Source of the DNA: Thermoanaerobacter pseudethanolicus ATCC 33223 | GTDB taxonomy: Bacteria > Bacillota > Thermoanaerobacteria > Thermoanaerobacterales > Thermoanaerobacteraceae | DNA: 64,000 nt | Direction of reading: 5' to 3' | Assembly (NCBI RefSeq): GCF_000019085.1 | Contig: NC_010321.1 | Coordinates: 628,501 to 692,500, forward strand | Part shown: piece by piece, positions 160-36,632 of the stretch | Numbering within the stretch: the first letter of the stretch is position 1 | Layout: every line of letters starts with the position of its first letter | Notes under the pieces: generated by a model | What the model was told of the DNA's origin: nothing | Seen by the model: only the letters and a program-made list of their open reading frames with translations | Database searches by the model: none | Translations under genes and position numbers: made by a program

Positions 160-1248
160 ATGGTAAAAGAGAAACTGAGAGTAGGAATTATAGGTTGTGG
201 AGGAATTGCTTTTGGTAAACACATGCCCTCTTTGGCAAAACTAGACAATATTGAAATGGTGGCCTTTTGTGACATCATAGAAGAGAGGGCTCAAAAAGCG
301 GCAAAAGAATATGGTACAAAAGACGCGAAAGTATATACGGATTACAAAAAACTTCTTGAAGATAAAACGATAGATGTGGTTCATGTTTGTACTCCCAACA
401 AGTCTCATGCAGACATAACTATTGATGCTCTTTATGCAGGAAAACATGTAATGTGTGAGAAGCCTATGGCTAAGACTGCTGCAGATGCCAGAAGAATGGT
501 GGAAGCATATAAGAAAACAGGTATGAAACTCACTATAGGGTATCAAAATCGCTTTAGACCAGATTCTCAATATTTACATAAAGTTTGTCAAAATGGTGAA
601 TTAGGGGAAATATATTTTGCTAAGGCTCATGCTATACGTCGCCGCGCGGTACCTACATGGGGTGTTTTCTTAAATGAAGAAGAGCAAGGTGGTGGGCCTT
701 TAATCGATATAGGAACACATGCCCTTGATTTGACATTGTGGATGATGAATAACTATAAGCCTAAAGTTGTAATGGGAAGCGCCTACTATAAATTAGGCAA
801 AAAGGCAAATGCTGCGAATGCTTGGGGACCATGGGACCCTGAAAAGTTCACAGTTGAAGATTCAGCTTTTGGATTTATAGTAATGGAGAATGGGGCTACC
901 ATTATATTAGAGTCCAGTTGGGCTTTAAATACTTTAGAGGTTGGCGAGGCTATGACCACTTTGTGTGGAACAGAAGGCGGAGCTGACATGAGAGATGGAC
1001 TTCGCATAAATGGAGAGAAATTTGGAAGACTTTATACAACTAAAGTTTCTACTGATGTAGGTGGAGTAGATTTCTATGAAGGTAAATCAGATGACCCAGG
1101 ATTTTTAGAAGCAAAAGCTTGGATTGATTGCATCATAAACGATACAGAGCCTGTTGTAAAACCAGAAGAAGCTCTTGTAGTAACTGAGATACTAGAGGCT
1201 ATTTATACATCTGCGAAAACAGGAGAACCAGTATATTTTAACAGGTAA
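160..1248 (+). CDS. Gfo/Idh/MocA family NAD(P)-dependent oxidoreductase
   Basis: 362 residues, a normal length for the family. The N-terminal Rossmann fold shows the dinucleotide motif GIIGCGGIA (about residues 9-17). The family motif CEKPMAKTA lies near residue 99 and GGGPLIDIGTHALDL in the C-terminal alpha/beta domain near residue 178, where the His belongs to the usual substrate pocket. These enzymes oxidise or reduce hydroxyl/keto groups of sugars or cyclitols. The start is supported by GGGGAGG seven bases upstream of the ATG. It is first of four adjacent genes, with 14 bases to the next, a paralogue. Pairing with two TIM-barrel isomerases suggests a keto-sugar or inositol-like pathway; the substrate cannot be read from sequence. 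Confidence 0.9.
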   Translation: MVKEKLRVGIIGCGGIAFGKHMPSLAKLDNIEMVAFCDIIEERAQKAAKEYGTKDAKVYTDYKKLLEDKTIDVVHVCTPNKSHADITIDALYAGKHVMCEKPMAKTAADARRMVEAYKKTGMKLTIGYQNRFRPDSQYLHKVCQNGELGEIYFAKAHAIRRRAVPTWGVFLNEEEQGGGPLIDIGTHALDLTLWMMNNYKPKVVMGSAYYKLGKKANAANAWGPWDPEKFTVEDSAFGFIVMENGATIILESSWALNTLEVGEAMTTLCGTEGGADMRDGLRINGEKFGRLYTTKVSTDVGGVDFYEGKSDDPGFLEAKAWIDCIINDTEPVVKPEEALVVTEILEAIYTSAKTGEPVYFNR

Positions 1249-1262
1249 ATGGAGGCTTTTGT

Positions 1263-2312
1263 ATGGAAAAACTTAAATATGCATGTGTTGGTGCAGGGTC
1301 AGTTGCTGATTACAAACACTTAAACGGTTATTCAAAAGTAGAAGGAGTTGAAATTGTAGCCATATCTGATCCGGATATAGAAGCTGCAAAAAGATTAGCG
1401 GAAAAGTACAATATACCTCACGTTTATACAGATTATGAAGAAATGTTTGAAAGAGAAGAACCAAACTTAATAAGCGTATGTACTCCTAATTATTTACATG
1501 CGCCTATTTCTATAAAAGCGATGGAAAAGGGAATTCATGTGCATTGTGAAAAACCTATAACTCTAAGCGCAAAAGAAGCTTATGAGGTCATTGAATCAAA
1601 AAATAAATACAAAAGGAAGTTTATGATAGGATTAAATAATAGGTTTACAAATGAATCTTTCTTTGTAAAAAGATATATAGAGGAAGGGTATATAGGCGAA
1701 ATATACCATGTAAAGACTGGCTGGAGGAGAAGGAGAGGCATTCCTGGAAAGGGCGGATGGTTTACAAATAAGAAATTGTCTGGAGGAGGCCCATTAATTG
1801 ATTTAGGTGTACATTTTTTAGACTTAGTCTTGTATTTCATGGGATACCCAGAGGTGCAATCTGTGTCAGCAGCTACTTATTCTAAGTTTTCAAATAGCAA
1901 CAGTTTAAACAGCTGGAATTATGCAAAAAGCGGGGATGGAATTTACGATGTGGAGGATATGGCAGTAGGCTTTGTAAGGCTTAAAAATGGTGCCACAATT
2001 GACTTTGAATTCAGCTGGGCTTCCAACATTGAGGGAGATTACAATCACTATGAAATTTTAGGTGATAAAGGTGGCATATGGTTTAAAAACGGACAGCTTA
2101 AAGTATTTTCGGAAATTGTTGAGACATTGATTGAAATAGTTCCCGACACCAATTATCCAAAGTCGCCTTTAAATGAATTTGAACATTTTGTTGACTGCAT
2201 AAAAAATGACAAAGAGCCTCTGGCTTCTGCTGAAGAAGGGGCAAAACTCATGAAAATAATAGACGGTGCCTATGAATCAGCTGAAAAAGGTAAGGAAATA
2301 GTTTTAGGTTAA
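1263..2312 (+). CDS. Gfo/Idh/MocA family oxidoreductase (second paralogue)
   Basis: 349 residues with the same two-domain plan as its upstream neighbour: CVGAGSVADYKH at the N-terminus (NAD-binding loop), CEKPITLSA near residue 95 and GGGPLIDLGVHFLDL near residue 172. A GGAGG sits upstream of the ATG. The two oxidoreductases are clearly related but diverged, so they probably act on different intermediates or opposite steps of one pathway, as in cyclitol or 3-keto-sugar catabolism. It lies 14 bases after the first paralogue and 17 bases before the first isomerase, which indicates co-transcription. The exact substrate is unknown. Confidence 0.9.
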   Translation: MEKLKYACVGAGSVADYKHLNGYSKVEGVEIVAISDPDIEAAKRLAEKYNIPHVYTDYEEMFEREEPNLISVCTPNYLHAPISIKAMEKGIHVHCEKPITLSAKEAYEVIESKNKYKRKFMIGLNNRFTNESFFVKRYIEEGYIGEIYHVKTGWRRRRGIPGKGGWFTNKKLSGGGPLIDLGVHFLDLVLYFMGYPEVQSVSAATYSKFSNSNSLNSWNYAKSGDGIYDVEDMAVGFVRLKNGATIDFEFSWASNIEGDYNHYEILGDKGGIWFKNGQLKVFSEIVETLIEIVPDTNYPKSPLNEFEHFVDCIKNDKEPLASAEEGAKLMKIIDGAYESAEKGKEIVLG

Positions 2313-2329
2313 AGGGGGAAAAAATTAAA

Positions 2330-3079
2330 ATGAGCATACCTATAGCACTTCAACTTTACACTTTGAGAGAGGAGACACAAAAAGATTTTACAGGTACTCT
2401 TGAAAAGGTTGCGGAAATAGGATACGAAGGAGTGGAGTTTGCAGGATATGGCGGTTTAAAAGCATCAGAATTAAGAAAAACGCTTGATAAATTAGGACTA
2501 AAAGCTGCTGGTAGTCATGTAGGAATAGATTTATTGAAAAACAATCTTGAGGAAGTGATAGATTATAACCTTGAAATAGGCAATAAATACATCGTATGTC
2601 CGTGGAATGAGTACAAGTCAAGAGAGGATTATATTGAAACAGCAAAGTTGTTTAATAAAATAGGTGAAAAGTGTAGGGAAAAGGGACTTGAGTTTTGTTA
2701 TCACAACCACAATCACGAATTTGAAATATACGATGGAGAATATGGACTTGACATACTTTACAAAAATACAGATAAAGAACTTGTAAAAGCTGAAATCGAT
2801 GCATATTGGGTTACATATGCGGGAGTTGACCCGTTAGAATATCTTAAAAAATTCTCCAATAGACTACCTTTAATTCACTTAAAAGACATGGATAAAGAGG
2901 ACAGGTCTTTTACTGAAATAGGAAATGGAATTATCAATTTTAAAGAAGTAATAAAAATTACAAAAGAAAATGGAGTTAAATGGCTAATTGTTGAACAGGA
3001 TGAGTGTAAAAGACCTCCAATTGAAAGTGTGAAAATTAGTTTTGAAAATTTAAAAAAGATTTTAGAGGAGGAAATGTAA
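2330..3079 (+). CDS. Sugar phosphate isomerase/epimerase (xylose isomerase-like TIM barrel)
   Basis: 249 residues, an AP-endonuclease-2/IolE-type TIM barrel. The opening IALQLYTLREE, the strand CYHNHNHEF (metal-binding His/Glu region, about residues 123-131), the segment VKAEIDAYWV and LIHLKDMD followed by the late EQDE are typical of this family, which binds a divalent metal and isomerises or dehydrates sugars or inositol derivatives. AAAGGGGG precedes the start by about ten bases. It is followed after one base by another TIM-barrel paralogue, and preceded by two Gfo/Idh genes, a usual partnership. Substrate unknown. Confidence 0.85.
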   Translation: MSIPIALQLYTLREETQKDFTGTLEKVAEIGYEGVEFAGYGGLKASELRKTLDKLGLKAAGSHVGIDLLKNNLEEVIDYNLEIGNKYIVCPWNEYKSREDYIETAKLFNKIGEKCREKGLEFCYHNHNHEFEIYDGEYGLDILYKNTDKELVKAEIDAYWVTYAGVDPLEYLKKFSNRLPLIHLKDMDKEDRSFTEIGNGIINFKEVIKITKENGVKWLIVEQDECKRPPIESVKISFENLKKILEEEM

Positions 3080-3080
3080 A

Positions 3081-4007
3081 ATGTATTTAGGATTTTTAAC
3101 AGTATGTCTTGGGAATATGCCTCTTAAAGAAAAAGCTAAGTGGGCAAGTGAAAATGGGTTTAAATCACTGGAAATTGCATGCTGGCCTAAAGACAATACG
3201 AGGGATTATTCTGCAAGTGACATAGATGTAGAAAATCTCACACCTGAAGAGGCGGAAGAAATAAAAAAATATTTTAAGGAGTACGGGCTCACAATTTCAT
3301 CTCTTGCATATTATGACAACAACCTTGACAGAGACCCAGAAAAGAGAAAGTTTATAAACAATCACTTAAAAAAGTGCATTGATGTAGCTAAAATGCTTGG
3401 GACTGACATGGTGGGGACTTTTGTAGGGAGAAACATTGAAAAGAGCATAAAAGACAATTTTGATGAATTTGAAAGAGTTTTTACTGATATAATAAGCTAT
3501 GCGGAAGACAAAGGAATAAAAATTATAATCGAAAATTGCCCTATGGAAGGATGGCAGGTACCTGGCCTTCCAGGAACCATATCTTTTACACCAGAGCTTT
3601 GGGAGGAGATGTTTAGAAGGATACCTTCTAAAAACTTTGGTTTAAATCTTGACCCTTCCCATCTTGTTTGGCAGTTTATAGACTATATAGATGTGATACC
3701 AGAGTTTAAAGATAGAATATTTCATGTACACGCAAAAGACACAGAAGTGTTTGAGGATAAATTTAAGCGATATGGAGTTTTCAACAGACAGCTTTACACA
3801 GGAACGCATGGCGAATTTGGATACTGGAGATACCGAATGCCAGGTATGGGAAATGTAGATTGGGGCAAGTTTATAAAGGCGCTAAAAGACAATGGATATG
3901 ATGGAGTAATAAGCATAGAACATGAAGACCCTCTATATGAAGGCAGTGAAGAAAAAGTAAAAGAAGGGCTTCTTTTAGGTCTAAATCATCTAAAACAATT
4001 TATATAA
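3081..4007 (+). CDS. Sugar phosphate isomerase/epimerase (TIM barrel), second paralogue
   Basis: 308 residues of the xylose isomerase-like TIM-barrel superfamily. Metal-ligand landmarks can be seen: IIIENCPMEGW near residue 150, LNLDPSHLVWQ near 190, FHVHAKDTEVF near 215 and ISIEHEDPLYEG near 280. The Shine-Dalgarno GAGGAGG is inside the end of the preceding gene, so the two are translationally linked. It is the last gene of the operon; a rho-independent terminator follows at once. With the two Gfo/Idh enzymes it suggests oxidation followed by isomerisation or epimerisation of a sugar or cyclitol. The exact reaction is not predictable. Confidence 0.85.
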   Translation: MYLGFLTVCLGNMPLKEKAKWASENGFKSLEIACWPKDNTRDYSASDIDVENLTPEEAEEIKKYFKEYGLTISSLAYYDNNLDRDPEKRKFINNHLKKCIDVAKMLGTDMVGTFVGRNIEKSIKDNFDEFERVFTDIISYAEDKGIKIIIENCPMEGWQVPGLPGTISFTPELWEEMFRRIPSKNFGLNLDPSHLVWQFIDYIDVIPEFKDRIFHVHAKDTEVFEDKFKRYGVFNRQLYTGTHGEFGYWRYRMPGMGNVDWGKFIKALKDNGYDGVISIEHEDPLYEGSEEKVKEGLLLGLNHLKQFI

Positions 4008-25610: not shown

Positions 25611-27842
25611 ATGGGTAGAGATGTATTGAATTTTAATGTAGATTGGCTATATATTCCTGAAGACTTAAATGATGCATATAAATTTGATTTTGATGAGAGC
25701 AATTTTGAAGTTGTTAGTCTTCCTCATGCAAACAAAACATTTCCTCACCACTATTTTAAAGAAGAAGACTACAGGTTTGTTTCATGGTACAGAAAACATT
25801 TTAAAGTAGATGAGAGATACAAAGGGAAAAAGGTTTATATTCATTTTGAAGGTGTTATAACTGTTGCGAAGGTTTATGTAAATGGCGAATTTGTAGGAGA
25901 ACATAAAGGAGGATATACTCCTTTTGAATTTGATATTACAGAGTATATTAAATACGGTAATTTTGAAAATTTAATTGCTGTACAAGTGGATTCAAGAGAG
26001 CATAAAGATATTCCTCCAGAAGGTCATCTTGTAGATTACATGTTGTTTGGTGGAATATACAGAAATGTATGGCTGAAAATTTTAAATGATACCCATATAA
26101 AAGATGTTTATTTTGTTGTTGATAAATTGCAAGATTCTGTTGCTGAAATTTCAATTACTACAACTATTGCAGGAAAAGAAATAAGCAATGGAAAGATATT
26201 GACAGAGGTTATAAATAAAGAAGGCGTTGTGTGTTCATCAGTGGTTACTGACATAAAAGAGATGCAAAAAGAGATTGTACAGCAAATAAAGATGGACAAT
26301 CCATTAACTTGGCATCCAGATCATCCGTATTTATATAATGTGTCTGTAAAACTTATTGCAGAGAATGAAATTTTAGATAATTATACTTTTAAGACAGGAA
26401 TAAGGACAGTTGAATTTAGAGATGACGGCAAATTTTATATTAATGGTGAACCTTTAAAATTGAGAGGATTAAACAGACATCAGACTTTTCCTTATGTTGG
26501 CGGTGCTATGCCGGATAGGGTTCAAAGAAAAGATGCAGATATACTAAAGTATGAATTGGGATTAAATTATGTTAGGACGTCACATTATCCGCAGGCTGTT
26601 TCATTTTTGGATAGATGTGATGAGATAGGTTTGTTAGTTTTTGAAGAGATACCTGGATGGCAGCATATAGGCGATGAAAATTGGAAGAACATTGCAAAAG
26701 AGAATTTAAAAGAAATGATTTTAAGAGATAGAAATCATCCTTGTATATTTATGTGGGGTGTGCGAATAAATGAGTCTTTAGATGACCACGATTTTTATAA
26801 AGAAATGAATGAAATAGCTCATAAATTAGACAGAAGTAGACCAACAGGTGGTGTTAGATATTTAAGAGATAGTGAAAAGCTAGAGGATGTATTTACATAT
26901 AACGACTTTATATACAATTTAGAAGGCAAAATACAACTTCCAAATCACAAAAAGTATATGGTAACAGAATATATGGGTCACATGTATCCGACAAAATCTT
27001 ATGATAACCTTAATCGACTTATTACTCATGCAAGGTTGCATGCTCTTATTCAAGACAAACAATATGGGATACCAAACATGGCTGGTGCATCAGGCTGGTG
27101 TGCATTTGATTATAATACCACAAGTGCTTTTGGTTCAGGAGACAATATATGCTATCATGGAGTCTGTGATATATTTAGACTTCCAAAGTTTGCAGCTCAT
27201 TTTTACAGGAGTCAAGCCGACCCGCACTTATATGGACCCTATGTGTTTATAGCTTCGTACTTAATACCATCATTTGAGGAAGAGAACGGCGATAAATTGC
27301 TTGTATTTAGCAATTGCGAAGAAGTAGAACTTTATATAAATGATAAATTTGTGAAAAGACAAATGCCCAATAGAGTTGATTTTCCTAGTTTACCACATCC
27401 GCCTTTTGAATTTTCAATGAAGGAATGCGGAATCAACTATATGGAGGTAAGAGTTAATAACGCTTCTATTACTGCGATAGGTTTGATAGACGGTAAGGAA
27501 GTAGCAAGACATACATTAAGGCCATATGGGAAACCACATAAATTAATTCTTTCTTGTGATGATAATGAGATTATGGCAGATGGCGCTGATTGTACAAGGG
27601 TTGTTGTAAGTGTTGTAGATGAAAATGGATCTATTCTTCCTTATGCTAATATACCAGTATCATTTGAAATAGAAGGTGAAGGAAAGCTGATTGGGGAAAA
27701 TCCGTTGACATTAGAGGCTGGCAGAGGAGCAGTTTATGTAAAATCGACACGAAAGCCGGGAGAAATAATTTTAAAAGCTAAATCTCATTATGTAGCGGAA
27801 GAAAGCAATGTATCTATAAAAACTAAGTCAATAGGATATTAA
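25611..27842 (+). CDS. GH2 glycoside hydrolase, probably beta-galactosidase
   Basis: 743 residues, a compact GH2 enzyme without signal peptide. The N-terminal sugar-binding beta domain (FEGVITVAKVYVNGEFVGEH) and immunoglobulin-like domain are followed by the TIM barrel with LRGLNRHQTFPYVGGAMPDR. The acid/base Glu lies in MWGVRINESL (about 388) and the nucleophile in VTEYMGHMYP (about 453). The C-terminal part (about 630-743) is a bacterial Ig-like domain. It is the last gene of the galactoside operon and is followed at once by a strong terminator. Another GH2 specificity such as beta-glucuronidase is possible, but context favours galactosides. Confidence 0.85.
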   Translation: MGRDVLNFNVDWLYIPEDLNDAYKFDFDESNFEVVSLPHANKTFPHHYFKEEDYRFVSWYRKHFKVDERYKGKKVYIHFEGVITVAKVYVNGEFVGEHKGGYTPFEFDITEYIKYGNFENLIAVQVDSREHKDIPPEGHLVDYMLFGGIYRNVWLKILNDTHIKDVYFVVDKLQDSVAEISITTTIAGKEISNGKILTEVINKEGVVCSSVVTDIKEMQKEIVQQIKMDNPLTWHPDHPYLYNVSVKLIAENEILDNYTFKTGIRTVEFRDDGKFYINGEPLKLRGLNRHQTFPYVGGAMPDRVQRKDADILKYELGLNYVRTSHYPQAVSFLDRCDEIGLLVFEEIPGWQHIGDENWKNIAKENLKEMILRDRNHPCIFMWGVRINESLDDHDFYKEMNEIAHKLDRSRPTGGVRYLRDSEKLEDVFTYNDFIYNLEGKIQLPNHKKYMVTEYMGHMYPTKSYDNLNRLITHARLHALIQDKQYGIPNMAGASGWCAFDYNTTSAFGSGDNICYHGVCDIFRLPKFAAHFYRSQADPHLYGPYVFIASYLIPSFEEENGDKLLVFSNCEEVELYINDKFVKRQMPNRVDFPSLPHPPFEFSMKECGINYMEVRVNNASITAIGLIDGKEVARHTLRPYGKPHKLILSCDDNEIMADGADCTRVVVSVVDENGSILPYANIPVSFEIEGEGKLIGENPLTLEAGRGAVYVKSTRKPGEIILKAKSHYVAEESNVSIKTKSIGY

Positions 27843-27870
27843 AAACCCACCCTTTGGGGTGGGTTTTATT
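27842..27870 (+). terminator. Rho-independent terminator of the galactoside operon
   Basis: AAAACCCACCC pairs perfectly with GGGTGGGTTTT around TTTG. The stem begins at the stop codon, and the right arm ends in the T-run. Confidence 0.95.
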
Positions 27871-27939
27871 ATAGTATGTATAATTTCCTATTGGTAGCTA
27901 ATCAATAATTTTTGAAAAAATAAATTCCTACAAACTAAA

Positions 27940-28006
27940 AATGTCTCAAAAACTTAAAAGAATGTCTATAAATCGAATTTTATAAACTTTTGTTGCAATT
28001 TATAAT
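27940..28006 (+). promoter_or_regulatory. Activator-type promoter module upstream of the alpha-mannosidase
   Basis: Two direct AATGTC repeats lie 21 bases apart (27940 and 27961), joined by AAAACTTAAAA. TATAAT follows 40 bases after the second repeat (28001), with no good -35 box. The same layout, with the same distances, is present at 31242-31308. This is what a regulator binding on one helix face next to a weak promoter would look like. Confidence 0.55.
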
Positions 28007-28048
28007 ATTAAACGAGAATATTATGCTATGAAAGGAGAGAAGAAGACG

Positions 28049-31000
28049 ATGTATTTTCAATTAGAAAGAATAGAGCGTATTTTAAAGGAATTAGAAAGTT
28101 ATATTTATTCGCAAGAGGTTCCAGTAGATATGTATAGATTTAAAGAATGTGGTTATAACTCTTATCACTTGTTGGAGGAAGATGGGGAGAATTGGGATAT
28201 ATTCAAAAGAGGAGACCGATATGGAGGAACAGATAAACATTTTTGGTTTAAAACACAAATAGCTATTCCAGAAACTTTTGAAGGCAAAACAGTAGTATAT
28301 AAAGTGTCAACAGGCAGAGAAGGCGAATGGGATGCATTAAACCCTCAATTTTTTATCTATGTTAATAAAAAATTAATCCAGGGATTGGATGTTAATCATA
28401 GAGAAATAATATTAACTGAAAATGCAAAGGCCGGAGAAAAGTATGATATAGATTTATATGCTTTTGCTGGGATGTTAGAAGGGTACATAGACCTTTATAC
28501 AGAGATAGCTATTTTAGAAAAAGAAATTGAAAAGCTTTATTATAATATAAAAGTTCCATTGGATATAATTAAACTGTTAGAAAAAGATAGTTTAGAATAT
28601 ATAAATACCATAAAATATTTGCAAACAGCTATTAATATTTTAGACCTTCGAAAACCATTTAGTAAAGACTTTTATAATTCTATAAATAAAGCTAATGAAT
28701 ATTTAGAAAAGGAGTTTTACGAAAAGTATTGCGGACATGATGATGTAATCGAAATATGTGTTGGACATACGCATATTGATATTGCTTGGTTATGGACATT
28801 GTCACAGACAAAAGAAAAAGCAGCAAGGAGTTTTTCAACTGTTTTAAATCTTATGAAACAATATCCAGAATATATATTTATCTCGAGTCAACCACAATTA
28901 TATAAGTTTATAAAAGAAGACCATCCAGAGATATATGAAGAAATAAAGAGAAGAATAAAAGAAGGAAGATGGGAAGCAGAAGGTTCGATGTGGGTAGAAG
29001 CAGATACAAATCTTACATCGGGAGAATCACTTGTCAGACAAATCTTATTTGGAAAACGATTTTTCAAAAAAGAATTTGGAGTAGATAACAAAATATTATG
29101 GTTACCTGATGTATTTGGTTACAGTGCTGCTTTACCACAAATTCTTAAAAAAAGTGGAATAGACTATTTTATGACAACTAAAATTAGTTGGAACGAATAC
29201 AACAAAATGCCTTATGATACCTTTATGTGGAGAGGAATAGATGGAACAGAAATACTAACACATTTTATAACAACTACTGATTATGTAAAAGGAGAACCTA
29301 AAGGATGGTTTACTACATATAATGGTAATTTAAATCCTTCACAAGTTATGGGGTGTTGGCAAAGGTATCAACAAAAAGAAATAAATAATTACGTTTTAAA
29401 TAGCTATGGTTACGGAGATGGTGGTGGTGGTCCTACTAAAGAGATGCTGGAAAATGGAAAGAGACTCGCAAAAGGTATACCAGGTGCTCCTAAAGTAAAA
29501 ATGGGAAAAGCGATAGACTTTTTTAAACAGTTAGAAAAAATTGTAAAAGGTAATCCTAAACTTCCTAAATGGGTAGGCGAACTCTATTTAGAATATCATA
29601 GGGGAACCTATACTTCTATGGCAAGAAACAAAAAATATAATAGAAAGACGGAATTTCTAAATTTAGATTCTGAATTATTTTCTACTATGAACATGATTTT
29701 ACAAGGGAAAAAATATCCTCAAAGTGAAATTAATAAAAATTGGGAAATTACTTTGCTTAATCAATTTCACGATATAATTCCAGGTTCTTCGATAAAAGAA
29801 GTTTATGAAGAATCAAAAAAGCAGTATGAAGAAATTAATGCTAGAGGGAAAAATATAATAAATTCTGCCTTAGATAGTATATGTTCTAATATTAATTTAA
29901 AAAATATTTCTTTAGTTGTATTTAATCAACTTAGTTTTGAAAGATCTGATATAGTTGAATTTGAATTACCTGAGGGTTGGTCTAATGTTTTAGTGTATGA
30001 TGGAGAAAAATTAATAACTTCACAGAAAGTCGGAAGTAACAAAATAATATTTTTTGCAGAAAATGTTCCATCAAAAGGATACAAAGTATATACCTTAAAG
30101 AAAGCAGAGAATTTCTCTCAGACAAGTAGTGAAATTAAAATAAACGAAAAAGAGATACAAAATAAATTCTTTAATATTAAACTTGATGACAATGGTAATA
30201 TTATCTCTATTTATGACAAATTAAACGAAAGGGAAGTACTTAAAAATAATCAAAAAGGTAATGTACTCCAAGCTTTTGAAGATAAACCACATAACTTTGA
30301 TGCCTGGGATATTAATATTTATTATCAAGAAAAGATGTGGGAAATTAATGATGTAGAAAAAATTGAAGTTTTAGAGACAGGCCCAGTTAGAGGAGCACTT
30401 AAAGTAAAAAAGAAATTTTTAGATTCAACTATTGAACAGATAATATATGTGTATAACGATATACCGAGGATAGATTTTAATAATAAAATAGACTGGAAGG
30501 AAAAGCAAATATTGCTCAAAGTGGCTTTTCCAGTTGATATACACGCAGATAAAGCAACTTATGAAATACAATTTGGAAATATAGAAAGACCAACCCATTG
30601 GAACACGAGTTGGGATTATGCGCGTTTCGAAGTTCCTGCGCATAAATGGGCTGATTTATCTGAAGGAGGATATGGAGTAAGTTTATTAAATGATAGTAAA
30701 TATGGGTACGACATTAAAGATTTAGTAATGAGACTTACTCTTCTTAAATCTGCGATTTATCCCAATGAGGAGGCTGATAAAGAAATTCATGAATTTGTAT
30801 ATTCCCTATATCCTCATAAAGGAGATTGGAAAGATGGGAATACTGTAAAAATGGCATATAATTTAAATTGTCCAATGTATGCTAAAATTGAAGGGCCACA
30901 TGATGGTGTTTTGCCAGAAAGATTTTCTTTACTTAATGTAGATAAAGAAAATGTGATAGTCGAAACTGTAAAAAAAGCAGAAGAAAGTGATGACATTATT

Positions 31001-31210
31001 GTAAGATTATATGAATATCAAAACAAAAGAGAAAAAGTTACCTTAACTTTATTTAAGGAAATAAAAGATGTAATTGAATGTGATCTTATGGAAAATGAAA
31101 TAAACAAAATAGATTTCGAAGGGAATAGCTTTAAATTTGAAATAAAACCTTATGAAATTAAAACATTTAAAATAATATTTTATATGACTACTATTTTTTT
31201 ATATATTTAA
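28049..31210 (+). CDS. Alpha-mannosidase (GH38)
   Basis: About 1,053 residues, cytoplasmic. An N-terminal domain precedes the GH38 catalytic domain, with the zinc site HTHIDIAWLWTL (about 240) and LWLPDVFGYSAALPQ, whose Asp (about 353) is the expected nucleophile. The middle and C-terminal beta domains follow. AAAGGAGAG is suitably placed for the ATG at 28049, so the longer frame from 28028 is not used. The end is odd: after YEIKTFKI it runs on into IFYMTTIFLYI, whereas the related fragment at 35113 ends YEIKTFKVK, suggesting a small frameshift at the terminus. A second mannosidase-type transport unit follows. Confidence 0.92.
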   Translation: MYFQLERIERILKELESYIYSQEVPVDMYRFKECGYNSYHLLEEDGENWDIFKRGDRYGGTDKHFWFKTQIAIPETFEGKTVVYKVSTGREGEWDALNPQFFIYVNKKLIQGLDVNHREIILTENAKAGEKYDIDLYAFAGMLEGYIDLYTEIAILEKEIEKLYYNIKVPLDIIKLLEKDSLEYINTIKYLQTAINILDLRKPFSKDFYNSINKANEYLEKEFYEKYCGHDDVIEICVGHTHIDIAWLWTLSQTKEKAARSFSTVLNLMKQYPEYIFISSQPQLYKFIKEDHPEIYEEIKRRIKEGRWEAEGSMWVEADTNLTSGESLVRQILFGKRFFKKEFGVDNKILWLPDVFGYSAALPQILKKSGIDYFMTTKISWNEYNKMPYDTFMWRGIDGTEILTHFITTTDYVKGEPKGWFTTYNGNLNPSQVMGCWQRYQQKEINNYVLNSYGYGDGGGGPTKEMLENGKRLAKGIPGAPKVKMGKAIDFFKQLEKIVKGNPKLPKWVGELYLEYHRGTYTSMARNKKYNRKTEFLNLDSELFSTMNMILQGKKYPQSEINKNWEITLLNQFHDIIPGSSIKEVYEESKKQYEEINARGKNIINSALDSICSNINLKNISLVVFNQLSFERSDIVEFELPEGWSNVLVYDGEKLITSQKVGSNKIIFFAENVPSKGYKVYTLKKAENFSQTSSEIKINEKEIQNKFFNIKLDDNGNIISIYDKLNEREVLKNNQKGNVLQAFEDKPHNFDAWDINIYYQEKMWEINDVEKIEVLETGPVRGALKVKKKFLDSTIEQIIYVYNDIPRIDFNNKIDWKEKQILLKVAFPVDIHADKATYEIQFGNIERPTHWNTSWDYARFEVPAHKWADLSEGGYGVSLLNDSKYGYDIKDLVMRLTLLKSAIYPNEEADKEIHEFVYSLYPHKGDWKDGNTVKMAYNLNCPMYAKIEGPHDGVLPERFSLLNVDKENVIVETVKKAEESDDIIVRLYEYQNKREKVTLTLFKEIKDVIECDLMENEINKIDFEGNSFKFEIKPYEIKTFKIIFYMTTIFLYI

Positions 31211-31791
31211 TATTTTCAAGAGATTACAGCCATAACATGAAAATGTCCTAAAAACTTAAAATAATGTCCTGGATTAGAATTTTATAAATTTTATGGTTTA
31301 GTTATAATAATAAACAGGAATAAAAACATATCTGAGTTTAACTATCTACCCTTTATTTAAACCTTATTTACTATTAAACGGCTGTCAGAAAACTATTCCA
31401 AAAAAAGTATTTCCGTTAATTACCATTGATAGTAAACACCGAGAATGTTTTCTTTAAATTTTAAAAAAGAAAATATATACATAAAGTTTTATTATAAGGA
31501 ATTATAAAAACGTTTTAGTAAATATTAATTGCAAAAAGCGGAAATCCAATTTTAGTTCAGCAGTAATAGAGACGTGTAAGAGGAGAGGGGGATATTGTAA
31601 AGGACATGGCTATACATTAAAAAATAGTTAAGATAAAAGTCATCCGCGTTTTTAAGACTTGCTTTCAAAGGAGTCTCCTATTCTTTCATGAAAAAAAGGG
31701 AATTCCTTTGAAATAGAGAGTAGAACCATTTAAACAATTTTGTGGTTCTACAATAGCAAATATGAATAAAATAAAAAGGGGGATGAATGTT
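31211..31791. other. Long leader of the second sugar ABC operon
   Basis: 580 bases without a gene. It holds the activator/promoter module at 31242-31308. Nearer the gene are CAAAGGA...TCCTTTG (about 31667-31712) and GTAGAACCA...TGGTTCTAC (about 31722-31754), inverted repeats that could form leader hairpins. A weak catabolite-response-like palindrome is centred at 31511. No small gene is supported. Confidence 0.55.
31242..31308 (+). promoter_or_regulatory. Activator-type promoter module upstream of the second sugar ABC operon
   Basis: AATGTC repeats at 31242 and 31263 (21 bases apart), AAAACTTAAAA between them, and TATAAT at 31303, 40 bases after the second repeat. Spacing is identical to the module at 27940. 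The AraC-type regulator encoded at 35736 is a candidate for binding. Confidence 0.55.
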
Positions 31792-33165
31792 GTGGGTAAA
31801 ACAAAAAAGTATCTTTCGTTGATGGTAGTTATTGTTTTTGCACTCACGATAATGTTGGCAGGGTGTGGAGGACAAAAAACTTCCCAGTCATCTGAAGGAG
31901 CTCCAGCGCCTCAAACAGAAACTTCACAAAAGAAAGTAGAAGTTGTTTTCTGGCATAATATGAAGGTAGTGACTGATAGACAGTCTATTGAAGAAGCAGT
32001 TCAAATGTTTAACAAAGAACATCCGAACATTGAAGTAAAAGCGGTATTAGTTCCAGGTGACGAAACAGATGCAACGAAATTAATGACAGCTGTTGCAGCA
32101 GGGGAAGGACCTGACGTTTATTATCTTGATAGATTTACAGTAGCACAAAGAGCTCATGCAGGCATGTTAGAACCCTTAGAAGATTATCTAACACAATTGG
32201 GTACAAATATTGATGACTTAAAGAGTAAATTTTTCGATTTTGCAATTGAAGAAGCAACTTATAAAGGAAAACTTTATGCACTTCCGTGGGATACTGATGC
32301 AAGGGTTTTATATTATAATAAAAAATTATTTAAAGAAGCAGGATTAGATCCGGAAAGACCACCACAAACTATATCAGAACTCGATGAATATGCTAACAAA
32401 CTCACGAAAGTGCAAGGGGGAAAAATTTTGCAAATAGGTTTTATTCCTTGGCGTGGTCAAGGATGGCCTTACACTTGGGGTTGGGTATTTGGAGGAAAAT
32501 TTTATGATCATGAAACCAAAAAATTTACTTTTGCAGATGATCCTAAGATTGTTGCTTCACTAGAATGGCAGAAAACCTATGCTGATAAATATGGAATAAA
32601 AAATATTGATTCTTTCTTTGCTGCTTTTGGGGATGGTGGAGGAGCAGAGCCTGTTGATCCATTTATGATGGGAAAAGAAGCTATGAGGATAGATGGTAAC
32701 TGGTTTTTGAGCACGCTGAGAAAATTTGCAGATCCTAAAGTATGTGAATGGGGAATAGCTCCAATACCATATCCTGGAGGTAGGGAAAAAGATTCAACTT
32801 GGGCAGGAGGTTGGAGTTTAGTTATTCCAAAAGGTGCAAAACATCCAAAAGAAGCAGCTGAATTTATTCAATGGATGGCTACAAAGGGTGCTATAAAATA
32901 TGCCAAAGATACTGCTCATTTTTCTGCAATTAAAGAAGGTACATTGGAGGTTGTAAAAGAAGATCCAGATCAAAAATTGTTTTATGAACTTTTAAATGGC
33001 CCCAATGCTCACAGCCGCCCTGTTGTACCAGTAGGAGCACTTGTTTGGGATGAGTTAGTAAGGGCTAGAGATGACGCACTTTATGGTAAAAAAGTACCTC
33101 AACAGGCTTTGAAAGAAGCACAAGAGAAAGTTCAAAAAGAACTTGATAAAGCTCTGAGTGAATAA
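31792..33165 (+). CDS. Sugar ABC transporter, solute-binding lipoprotein
   Basis: About 457 residues. From the GTG at 31792 the signal peptide is clean and ends in the lipobox LAGC. An ATG ten codons upstream is in frame, but AGGGGG lies between the two and fits the GTG. The mature protein has VVFWHNMKVVTDRQSIEEAVQMFNKEHP and WGWVFGGKFYD, typical of family 1 oligosaccharide binders. Adjacent alpha-mannosidase genes (one intact upstream, one ruined downstream) suggest a mannoside or mannan-oligosaccharide ligand. This is inference from gene order. Confidence 0.9.
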   Translation: MGKTKKYLSLMVVIVFALTIMLAGCGGQKTSQSSEGAPAPQTETSQKKVEVVFWHNMKVVTDRQSIEEAVQMFNKEHPNIEVKAVLVPGDETDATKLMTAVAAGEGPDVYYLDRFTVAQRAHAGMLEPLEDYLTQLGTNIDDLKSKFFDFAIEEATYKGKLYALPWDTDARVLYYNKKLFKEAGLDPERPPQTISELDEYANKLTKVQGGKILQIGFIPWRGQGWPYTWGWVFGGKFYDHETKKFTFADDPKIVASLEWQKTYADKYGIKNIDSFFAAFGDGGGAEPVDPFMMGKEAMRIDGNWFLSTLRKFADPKVCEWGIAPIPYPGGREKDSTWAGGWSLVIPKGAKHPKEAAEFIQWMATKGAIKYAKDTAHFSAIKEGTLEVVKEDPDQKLFYELLNGPNAHSRPVVPVGALVWDELVRARDDALYGKKVPQQALKEAQEKVQKELDKALSE

Positions 33166-33247: not shown

Positions 33248-34150
33248 ATGTTTAAAACAAAAAAATTATCATTAGAGATGAGAAATAACATAACAGGTCT
33301 TTTATTTACCCTACCGTGGATAATAGGTTTCTTAATTTTTACTTTTTATCCTATAGTAGCTTCTTTCTATTACAGCTTCACAGAGTATAATGTTGCAACA
33401 CCCCCAAAATGGGTAGGTTTAGAAAATTATATTAATTTGTTCAAAGATGAATTGTTTTTAGAAGCTTTTTATAATACAGGATATTACGCTGCGGGATTAG
33501 TTCCTCTCGGACTTATTGTTGGTTTAATATTAGCACTATTATTAGTACAACCATTGAAAGAAAAATATTTATACAGGGCTTTAATTTATCTGCCGAGTAT
33601 TGTACCGGTTTATGCTCTTGCTGTTATTTCGTTGGTTTTTTTTAATCCATATTTCGGTCTTGTAAATGGTTTCTTGTCTATTTTCAGAATAAATGGACCT
33701 ATGTGGTTAAATGATGAGAACTGGGTTAAATTTACTATTGTGCTTCTTTCACAATGGGGAGCAGGAGGAACAGCTTTAATATTTATGGCAGCGATAAATG
33801 ATATACCAAAAGATTTATATGAAGCTGCTATGCTTGATGGAGCTACTGGTTGGCAAACTTTTTGGAAGATAACATTACCTCTTATGTCACCTGCTATTCT
33901 TTATTATTTAATTACTGCTACGATAGGAGCAGTGCAGATTTTTGATTTGCCTCAAATAATGACAGGTGGAGGACCAGCTAACGCTTCTTTGTCTTATGTA
34001 ATGTATTTGTACCGACATGCGTTTAGGTATTTACATATGGGGATAGCTTCTGCAATGGCATGGATATTATTTATCGTAACAATTATTCTTACCATTTTAA
34101 TATTTAAAACTTCCGCAAGATGGACTTTTTACGGTGGTAGTGAAAAATAG
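33248..34150 (+). CDS. Sugar ABC transporter permease (MalF-like)
   Basis: 300 residues with six predicted spans. The EAA loop reads LYEAAMLDGATGWQTFWKITLPLMSP (near 195). AAAAGGAGG stands upstream of the ATG. It follows the intercistronic hairpin and is followed after 24 bases by the partner permease. It belongs with the lipoprotein at 31792. Confidence 0.93.
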   Translation: MFKTKKLSLEMRNNITGLLFTLPWIIGFLIFTFYPIVASFYYSFTEYNVATPPKWVGLENYINLFKDELFLEAFYNTGYYAAGLVPLGLIVGLILALLLVQPLKEKYLYRALIYLPSIVPVYALAVISLVFFNPYFGLVNGFLSIFRINGPMWLNDENWVKFTIVLLSQWGAGGTALIFMAAINDIPKDLYEAAMLDGATGWQTFWKITLPLMSPAILYYLITATIGAVQIFDLPQIMTGGGPANASLSYVMYLYRHAFRYLHMGIASAMAWILFIVTIILTILIFKTSARWTFYGGSEK

Positions 34151-34174: not shown

Positions 34175-35017
34175 ATGTTTAAAAATCTGAAAATAAAAAA
34201 AATATTTCATACCAATATGACAAGATTATTATTGATATTAGTAACTTTTATATACATGCTTCCACTTCTTTGGATGGTAACAACATCTTTAAAAGCGAAT
34301 CAAGATCTTTATGCGTCTCCACCAAAGATAATATCTATTCCTCTTGTTTTTGAAAATTACAAAAAAGCCACAGAATATTTTCCTTTTTGGAGATATTTCA
34401 AAAATAGTGTAATAATTACTACTGGAGTAATAGTCGGTACTCTTTTCTCTTCTCCGTTAGTTGCTTACAGCTTTTCTAAAATTAATTGGAAAGGGCGAGA
34501 TATACTTTTTTACATTATGTTATCCACGATAATGCTACCTTTTGCAGTTACTATGATACCTCAATTTTTAATTTTTAAAAAACTTGGATGGATAAATACT
34601 TTCTTACCACTCATAATTCCCAGTTTCTTTGGCAATCCCTTGAGTATTTTCCTTGTAAGACAATTTTTTATGACAATACCTGATTCACTTCTAGATGCTG
34701 CGAGAATTGATGGGGCATCAGAATTACAAATTTATACAAGAATAATGCTACCTCTTGCTAAACCTGTATTATTTTTGATAACCTTGTTTACTTTTATAGG
34801 TGCGTGGAATAACTATTTAGGACCTTTGATATATTTAACCGATGAAAGTAAATATCCTCTTGCGCTAGGGCTTCCTCAGTTTCTAGACAGATATGGTACT
34901 TATTGGAATTGGATGATGGCAGCAGCTACTATTTCCGTGGTACCCACTATCATTTTCTTTGCATTTGCTCAAAAATATTTGATAGAAGGTATAAAATTGA
35001 CAGGTTTGAAAGAATAA
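34175..35017 (+). CDS. Sugar ABC transporter permease (MalG-like)
   Basis: 280 residues with six predicted spans. The EAA loop reads LLDAARIDGASELQIYTRIMLPLAKP (near 171). AAAAAGGGGG is upstream. It is the last intact gene of the transport unit; a ruined alpha-mannosidase gene follows, so the original operon probably coupled uptake to hydrolysis. Confidence 0.93.
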   Translation: MFKNLKIKKIFHTNMTRLLLILVTFIYMLPLLWMVTTSLKANQDLYASPPKIISIPLVFENYKKATEYFPFWRYFKNSVIITTGVIVGTLFSSPLVAYSFSKINWKGRDILFYIMLSTIMLPFAVTMIPQFLIFKKLGWINTFLPLIIPSFFGNPLSIFLVRQFFMTIPDSLLDAARIDGASELQIYTRIMLPLAKPVLFLITLFTFIGAWNNYLGPLIYLTDESKYPLALGLPQFLDRYGTYWNWMMAAATISVVPTIIFFAFAQKYLIEGIKLTGLKE

Positions 35018-35134: not shown

Positions 35135-35598
35135 GTGATACTATGCGCATGTCTTTAATAAGAAGTTCTTATTTTCCTGATCCGCTTCCTGAGATAGGAG
35201 AACATGAGATTGAGTTTGCAGTATATCCTCATACTGGAAACTGGACAAATGCACGCTCTACGAGATGTGGATATGAATTTAACAACAGATTGGAAGCTTT
35301 TTATGATGATCCTCATGAAGGGATATTAGGAGATGTAATGACTACAGTAGAAGTAGAACCGGAAAATATCATTATAGCGGCTATAAAAAGAGCTGAAGAT
35401 GATGATTCTATAATATTGAGGATGTACGAAACAAATGGAGTAGAGACGGTAGGAAATGTGAAAATATCATTGTTTGCTGAAACAGTGGTAGAGACTGATT
35501 TATTGGAACAACCTGTAGGAGATATAGTAAAGATTCAAAATGGTGTTTTTAGTAGCGTATTTAAACCGTATGAAATAAAAACTTTCAAAGTTAAGTGA
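35113..35598 (+). pseudogene. C-terminal remnant of a second GH38 alpha-mannosidase
   Basis: The frame YYGFDFLGDTMRMSLIRS, then PDPLPEIGEHEIEFAVYPHTGNW and YEIKTFKVK at the stop, matches the C-terminal beta domain of the intact alpha-mannosidase at 28049 (its YGYDIKDLVMRLTLLKS... and YEIKTFKI). About 160 of some 1,050 residues remain and the catalytic domain is gone. Divergence between the two shows this was an older paralogue rather than a fresh partial duplication. An ATG at 35143 keeps it open as a 151-residue frame, but without a proper ribosome site. Confidence 0.8.
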
Positions 35599-35735
35599 TA
35601 TAAGTTAGAATAAAAGATAGTTATTAATGAACATATAACGTTAATTAAAAAATTTTTTTAAGTAATTTTAGCTTTGATAAGAATAAGTATGTATTAAGTT
35701 TATATGTAGTGCTCCTATTGTGGGGGTGGCATTTT

Positions 35736-36632
35736 GTGAATATGTATAGAGCTTCTGAAGAATTATCTAAACTGGATATTCAAGTTTCTATTGATGATTT
35801 TATAATAAATGTATTATGGTTTAGAGTGATGGTTAGAGAAGGGGAATGGGAAATACCAAGACATACTCATTCTAGTTTTGAATTTCATTTTGTTCCGGAA
35901 GGGGATTCACTAGTTATTCTTGATGATGAGCAATTTGTAGTCAAAAAAGGTGAATTTTATGTTACAGCACCGGGAATTTATCATGAGCAACGTTCAATAG
36001 GGGAAAAATATATAGAATATAGCATAAATTGTGATTTTAAAAAAACAGAGAAAGAAGTTTTCTCTGAAATAGATATTATTTTTGAAATATTAAGCTCAGC
36101 AAAATGTTTTCCAGTCAAAGATCGATATGGAGCAATGAAGTATTTCGAATTAGCTCTACAAGAGGCATATGCACAAAAAATAGGATTTTACAATAATATA
36201 AAAAGTTTAATTGTCATGATACTTACTATGGCTGCACGTGCCTTGGTTTTTGATAACAAAATATCTTCTTATTATCCTGTGCCTAAAAAATTAAAAGAAA
36301 CTGATTATAGGTTTACTTTGATAAAAAAATTTATTGAAGATAATATTTCAGATGTTCGTAAAGTAGAAGATATAGCAAATTATCTTCATCTCAGTCCTAA
36401 ACAGATAAATAGAATTGTAAAAGAAAAAACAAATAAATCTACAAAAGAGCTAATAAACTTTCTTAAGCTTCAGGAGGCAAAAGAAATGCTAAAAAATACA
36501 AATATTTCAATTAAAGAAATAGCTAATAGACTAGGTTTTTCTAGTGAATATTATTTTAATCAATTTTTTAAAAGAGAAGAAGGATATCCTCCGGGACTTT
36601 ATAGAGATAATATTAAGAAGTATTACTATTAA
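35736..36632 (+). CDS. AraC family transcriptional regulator with N-terminal cupin domain
   Basis: About 298 residues. The cupin sensor has PRHTHSSFEFHFVPEGDSLVILD and KKGEFYVTAPGIYHEQ (about 40-90), which usually binds a sugar. The C-terminal AraC double helix-turn-helix (about 200-298) has VRKVEDIANYLHLSPKQINRIVKEK and ISIKEIANRLGFSSEYYFNQFFKREEGYPPGLYR. GGGGGTGG is six bases from the GTG at 35736; the upstream ATG at 35709 lacks a site. It is the likely regulator of the mannoside-type genes upstream, perhaps through the paired AATGTC modules. Confidence 0.9.
   Translation: MNMYRASEELSKLDIQVSIDDFIINVLWFRVMVREGEWEIPRHTHSSFEFHFVPEGDSLVILDDEQFVVKKGEFYVTAPGIYHEQRSIGEKYIEYSINCDFKKTEKEVFSEIDIIFEILSSAKCFPVKDRYGAMKYFELALQEAYAQKIGFYNNIKSLIVMILTMAARALVFDNKISSYYPVPKKLKETDYRFTLIKKFIEDNISDVRKVEDIANYLHLSPKQINRIVKEKTNKSTKELINFLKLQEAKEMLKNTNISIKEIANRLGFSSEYYFNQFFKREEGYPPGLYRDNIKKYYY

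Follow-up and report, generated by a model that had tools for sequence, protein, structure and literature searches.

Two copies of a probable AraC-family operator-promoter at an alpha-mannosidase gene and a sugar importer of Thermoanaerobacter pseudethanolicus

We analyzed a stretch of 64,000 nucleotides (the window) from the genome of Thermoanaerobacter pseudethanolicus ATCC 33223 (contig NC_010321.1, positions 628,501 to 692,500, forward strand), in which a promoter module occurs twice: once ahead of a glycoside hydrolase family 38 (GH38) alpha-mannosidase gene (copy M1) and once ahead of the genes of a sugar ATP-binding cassette (ABC) transporter (copy M2). The two copies are very probably operator-promoters of the AraC-family regulator encoded at 35709–36632, which would activate the alpha-mannosidase and the importer in response to a mannoside-type inducer. 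Distant bacteria have the same module next to the same regulator and enzyme genes, and for this reason we consider it very probably the docking site of this AraC.

Each copy carries two direct AATGTC repeats spaced 21 bp apart, read in the sequence at 27940 and 27961 (M1) and at 31242 and 31263 (M2). The copies have a linker in common (AAAAACTTAAAA) and a TATAAT hexamer (28001–28006 and 31303–31308) that begins 40 bp after the start of the second repeat. A first-pass annotation of the window had claimed repeats, spacing, linker, and hexamer at both positions, and all are as it described; its claim of weak -35 regions also holds, with TTTATA (4/6) and a 16-bp spacer at both modules. The sites are wider than that annotation had it: an additional conserved ATTTT box, at 27977–27981 in M1 and 31279–31283 in M2, overlaps the -35 region. 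Between the module start and a point 14 bp beyond the -10 hexamer, 60 of 81 positions agree in M1 and M2, and the two align over ∼83 bp at 77% identity. Their parts, with offsets counted from 27940 for M1, are as follows.

27940..27959, + strand: M1 half-site 1 (AATGTCTCAAAAACTTAAAA), its boxes conserved in other genomes
27961..27981, + strand: M1 half-site 2 (AATGTC ... ATTTT), overlapping the -35 region
28001..28006, + strand: M1 -10 hexamer TATAAT, 61 bp from the module start
31242..31261, + strand: M2 half-site 1 (AATGTCCTAAAAACTTAAAA)
31263..31283, + strand: M2 half-site 2 (AATGTC ... ATTTT)
31303..31308, + strand: M2 -10 hexamer TATAAT, 61 bp from the module start

The module is rare. 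Two matches to AATGTC-N10..20-AATGTC were found in the window, compared with 0.09 expected. The first-pass annotation had called for a genome-wide scan; in the single contig of 2,362,816 bases, the pattern AATGTCNNAAAANNTTAAAANAATGTC with up to three mismatches matched M1 and M2 only (zero matches for the reversed-pattern control), and the 2.36-Mb genome yielded no further copy at this threshold.

We then turned to other genomes. Relatives of the window AraC were present in four of 24 genomes of the order: this genome (G000), the same-genus genome of Thermoanaerobacter thermocopriae JCM 7501 (G008), G010, and G011. A scan seeded by two 7-residue peptides yielded six more genomes (loci L013, L014, L015, L017, L018, and L019; 48%–53% identity) and G008 again (L016). 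The AraC relative lies directly upstream of GH38 in all these genomes except G000. At each of the 12 AraC–GH38 junctions read, from 11 other genomes, the gap between the genes contains the module, followed by ATTT and then by a -10 hexamer, with a module consensus of TGTCYnAAAAnnTTAAAAnnnnGTC. A strict regular expression had matched no module in L010–L019, and the gaps were then read by eye; six junctions (L013, L014, L015, L017, L018, and L019) had thus been read ahead of the final pattern. G633 and G634 were found after the motif was built, when 225 genomes of the order to which G416 belongs were searched (three matches, including G416 itself). The best matrix match of each of these two loci fell in the AraC–GH38 gap (31.0 and 23.4 bits, with next best matches of 7.1 and 1.6), and the consensus pattern matches the G633 site and misses the G634 site. 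No further junction was found in eight genomes of the family of G419.

The distant AraC of G045 (29% identity) had no match to the window GH38 within the surrounding 19.5 kb and no module. In eight of the 15 loci of the peptide-seeded scan (L020–L027), the match was confined to the helix-turn-helix (HTH) region (26%–36%), and none had a GH38 match nearby.

The operator overlaps the AraC stop codon in nine of the 12 junctions; in six the overlap is exactly 9 bases, the stop codon being the internal TAA or TGA of the module. The remaining three junctions have gaps of 1 (G008), 17 (G414b), and 52 (G415) bases. We saw no operator upstream of the AraC gene in 11 loci, over up to 701 bp (149 bp in L013 and 533 bp in L040): the best score was 7.1, versus at least 27.4 for 13 sites with the same matrix. 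Given its absence from these stretches, the regulator is probably outside the control of its own operator in the usual layout. We also noted that G414 has two AraC–GH38 pairs (L013 and L040), of which the second has the module too; because each pair has its own, the two regulons may cross-talk.

An alignment of the sites resolved their anatomy. Invariant in the first 13 aligned sites were TGTC at offsets 2–5, A at 8, 10, and 11, TTAA at 14–17, C at 26, T at 33, and ATTT at 37–40; the later G634 site deviates at offsets 2 and 14. Among nine lineages, mean pairwise identity was 0.82 in the first half-site, 0.41 at offsets 27–36, 0.74 at offsets 37–43 (the ATTT region), 0.55 around the -10 element (ungapped and blurred by a one-base shift), and 0.28–0.30 in the flanks and the spacer before the -10 element. 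All 15 sites have a -10 hexamer (13 TATAAT, two TATACT) beginning 60–61 bp from the module start; a hexamer with at least 5/6 identity to TATAAT at that distance is found by chance at ∼3% of window positions. Ties in this search were broken towards 61 bp, which affects only G415 (TATAAT at both 61 and 70). Among the 13 scored sites, no -35 element was better than 4/6. With the -10 hexamer taken to begin at -12, the module extends from about -73 to -32, its second half-site against the -35 region. Tandem half-sites 21 bp apart, a downstream half-site over a weak -35, and a fixed distance to the -10 element are the marks of a class II site, and we read the module as a local class-II-like activator site of the AraC family.

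Specificity was assessed with a matrix built from nine sites outside G000 and G008. Its two best matches in the window were 27940 (27.9 bits) and 31242 (22.5 bits), and the third reached 13.7 bits. Both M1 and M2 are present in G008. In a sample of 398 genomes of the phylum, which as listed lacked G008, G010, and G011, the strict pattern was found in one genome, this one. An AraC profile matched this genome and one other among the 398, G045, where the distant relative lacks a neighboring GH38. A looser pattern, which misses the G417 and G634 sites, was run against 11 whole genomes (ten with the AraC–GH38 pair or the Thermoanaerobacter form of the pair, plus G045); all 12 exact matches fell at AraC–GH38 junctions or at the M1 and M2 promoters, and G417 and G045 had none. 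Its five one-mismatch matches, versus nine in reversed controls, look like background, and none of nine window proteins was found in their ∼2- to 3-kb loci.

The proposed regulator has the domains of an AraC/XylS-family regulator.

35709..36632, + strand: AraC-family regulator, cupin plus double HTH, proposed M1/M2 binder (Pfam Cupin_2, AraC_binding, HTH_18)

Its C-terminal double HTH matches HTH_18 (PF12833) above cutoff (E 8.8e-20), and in a predicted model this part matches the folds of the AraT (6swi) and YesN (3lsg) DNA-binding domains. The N-terminal sensor domain matches PF07883 and PF02311 above cutoff, and its predicted fold matches the AraC sensor 2arc and BgaR. The model has a pLDDT of 87.7 and a pTM of 0.59, the latter making the domain placement uncertain; the closest-ranked full-length structures were ToxT and Rns, with low whole-chain TM-scores (∼0.3). 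The protein scores 58.3 bits against the arabinose AraC equivalog NF007860, below the cutoff of 208, with the best stretch in the HTH region only, and among the best 25 of 27 matched NCBIfam families it is above the cutoff of none. Residues H41, H43, E47, H49, and H81 of the sensor domain (window 35742–36632) are kept in 11 out of 11 aligned proteins, a pattern that resembles a cupin metal or ligand site.

Taken together, we propose that two subunits of the regulator would bind the 21-bp tandem repeat, the upstream half being recognized through TGTC and TTAAAA and the downstream half through GTC and ATTT. The downstream subunit, placed against the -35 region, would bring in RNA polymerase at a promoter whose -10 element is good and whose -35 element is poor. 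The inducer is probably a mannoside or a product of mannoside breakdown, and activation would jointly switch on the GH38 alpha-mannosidase (from M1) and the sugar importer (from M2). The first-pass annotation had named the AraC protein (at 35736) as the likeliest regulator of an activator-type module. The association of AraC, GH38, and module at 12 out of 12 junctions in 11 other genomes and the fixed -10 distance strengthen that assignment, with activation itself a prediction from the promoter layout.

Several observations weigh against this reading. The 22.5 bits of M2 are barely above the best score in 30 random 64-kb sequences (21.6; mean 12.7), and support for M2 beyond the matrix score comes from its position, its -10 element, and its presence in G008. 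The reversed control of the strict pattern had two matches in the 398 genomes; moreover, the strict pattern misses four of the 15 known sites (G414b, G417, G419, and G634), which makes rarity in the phylum less certain than one in 398 suggests. The sites of G417 and G634 depart from the consensus. AraC relatives may have been missed, because the profile search scored at most five candidates per genome in the results shown and the other scan was seeded by two peptides. The AraC gene of this strain lies away from M1, and the protein that it encodes shares only 74% identity with the G008 AraC, while most aligned parts of the neighboring proteins are 85%–97% identical (79% for the GH38 N-terminus and 80% for the GH2 C-terminus).

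Could the neighboring AraC be a bystander, with the module bound by another AraC/YesN-type regulator that has a similar DNA-binding domain? The resemblance of the window AraC domain to those of AraT and YesN would allow it, and, according to passages of PMC8579813, tandem repeats ahead of promoters also serve response regulators that have AraC-type DNA-binding domains. We regard this as very unlikely, as the module accompanies this AraC at all 12 junctions read and its strict form is in no other of the 398 phylum genomes, although a first look with the profile search gave many candidate AraC-type stretches in some of them (133 in G045). It is exceedingly unlikely that the likeness of M1 and M2, which align over ∼83 bp at 77%, is merely identity left over from a DNA duplication with no regulatory function: lineages that are only 0.28–0.30 identical in their flanks have the boxes and the spacing in common, and both modules are present in G008.

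The sign of regulation is a separate matter. E. coli AraC is a dual regulator that represses without sugar, and the downstream half-site of the module overlaps the -35 region, a position that would also allow occlusion of the promoter. The protein bound at the module might accordingly be a repressor, or have a dual role with repression when sugar is absent. We consider this unlikely, since a weak -35 element with upstream tandem sites is an activator layout in the descriptions given in parts of PMC8579813.

Activation by the AraC protein, the reading we prefer, would act on the alpha-mannosidase and transporter genes, which lie downstream from the modules together with a leader and a GH38 remnant.

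28028..31210, + strand: GH38 alpha-mannosidase, proposed M1 target (Pfam Glyco_hydro_38N/38C)
31309..31761, + strand: long leader from M2 to the transporter genes
31762..33165, + strand: sugar ABC solute-binding protein (SBP), first gene after M2 (Pfam SBP_bac_1)
33248..34150, + strand: sugar ABC permease 1 (below-cutoff NCBIfam matches UgpA, GlcT, and MalF)
34175..35017, + strand: sugar ABC permease 2 (below-cutoff NCBIfam matches GlcU, UgpE, and MalG)
35143..35598, + strand: GH38', C-terminal remnant of a second GH38 gene (Pfam Glyco_hydro38C2)

For the GH38 gene, a start at 28049 is likelier than 28028, because AAAGGAGAG precedes 28049 and relatives begin there (the second Met). The M2 leader folds better than 100 out of 100 shuffles (z = -2.33). 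We observed that M2 and most of the leader (31182–31578) are ∼99% identical to G008 (393 of 396 aligned positions); the preceding GH38 gene is mostly less alike to G008 (77%–100% per 100 bp). This near-identity reflects either recent exchange or a functional leader, for which a stable fold is only mildly indicated.

Other regulatory or mobile elements were considered and rejected. Among 10 genomes of the genus (best 40 candidates per genome), the M2 leader matched only itself, its G008 counterpart, both M1 modules, and a weak 41-bp stretch in G005, arguing against a repeat or mobile element. Three Rfam matches to cis-regulatory RNAs, all below the gathering threshold, lie within 27800–27956, and none lies in 31309–31761. 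The cre-like palindrome of CcpA sites, WTGNAANCGNWWNCA, had six window matches with at most one mismatch versus 9.63 expected by chance, none near 27940 or 31242.

A comparison of gene order showed a rearrangement in this strain, where the AraC gene is unusually placed, a point that the first-pass annotation had passed over. The order in G008 is GH36-GH2-AraC-M1-GH38-M2-SBP-permeases, and here it is GH36-GH2-M1-GH38-M2-SBP-permeases-GH38 remnant-AraC. Long open frames in G010 and G011 contain stretches with 70% and 68% identity, respectively, to the remnant (151 aa); in G011 this second GH38 gene comes after an SBP gene and two permease genes of its own, matching the order in this strain. The 74% identity of the AraC proteins and the arrangement suggest either paralogs sorted by reciprocal loss or a replacement. 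In G008 itself, the GH38 gene is in three reading frames (locus L010, 4667–7795) and the preceding GH2 gene in two (870–3106), owing either to draft errors or to decay.

The new position of the AraC gene behind the transporter may have consequences for its control. No + strand terminator-like site is listed between 35017 and 35709, and AraC might therefore be transcribed from M2. A weak terminator-like hairpin at 35710–35728, just before the likely AraC start, lowers the probability of such feedback; promoter-like matches in the region are at chance level (46 found versus 46.5 expected). A tentative scenario, which we hold to be possible yet doubtful, is that an AraC gene that normally ends at or in its own target operator, and outside its control, was here moved to the end of the M2 operon or replaced there by a paralog; this could have turned an open-loop switch into one with positive feedback, with the usual arrangement retained in T. 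thermocopriae. If true, the two Thermoanaerobacter species form a natural pair on how operon reshuffling can create all-or-none sugar induction.

More generally, the analysis links a regulator and a predicted operator to a scattered AraC–GH38 alpha-mannosidase gene pair, and provides a sequence pattern usable to predict targets in other Firmicutes. The module is a candidate sugar-responsive promoter for thermophiles, and the genomes offer a natural comparison of the same predicted regulon with its regulator inside versus outside the controlled operon. In the open-licence literature, judged mainly by titles and the starts of abstracts, we recognized no description of an AraC-regulated GH38 regulon.

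The layout is reminiscent of E. coli araBAD I1-I2, with TAGC repeats 21 bp apart and a -10 element at 58 bp, compared with 60–61 bp here. E. coli AraC likewise combines a cupin sensor with a double HTH. It differs in its half-site sequence, in its sensor (∼12% identical in the 2arc fold match), and in controlling arabinose genes rather than the mannoside genes proposed here. BgaR, an AraC-family lactose sensor, is alike in sensor fold (6nwo_B, TM-score of 0.64 by target length) and differs in its sugar and target, with 11%–15% identity in the fold matches. A further parallel is found in Caldicellulosiruptor, whose AraC-family regulators HemR, PecR2, XylQ, and AxuRS are local to CUT1 sugar ABC operons; passages of PMC8579813 present them as predicted activators with tandem-repeat sites ahead of the promoter, which were sought there with a periodicity of 21 or 32 bp. 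These systems share with our locus a local regulator with a sugar importer, often with a glycosidase, and upstream tandem-repeat sites, whereas GH38 is absent from the main text of that paper (PMC8579813). The predicted T. pseudethanolicus system is thus of the same kind as AraC-family sugar regulation in Caldicellulosiruptor, with a different regulator, operator, and target.

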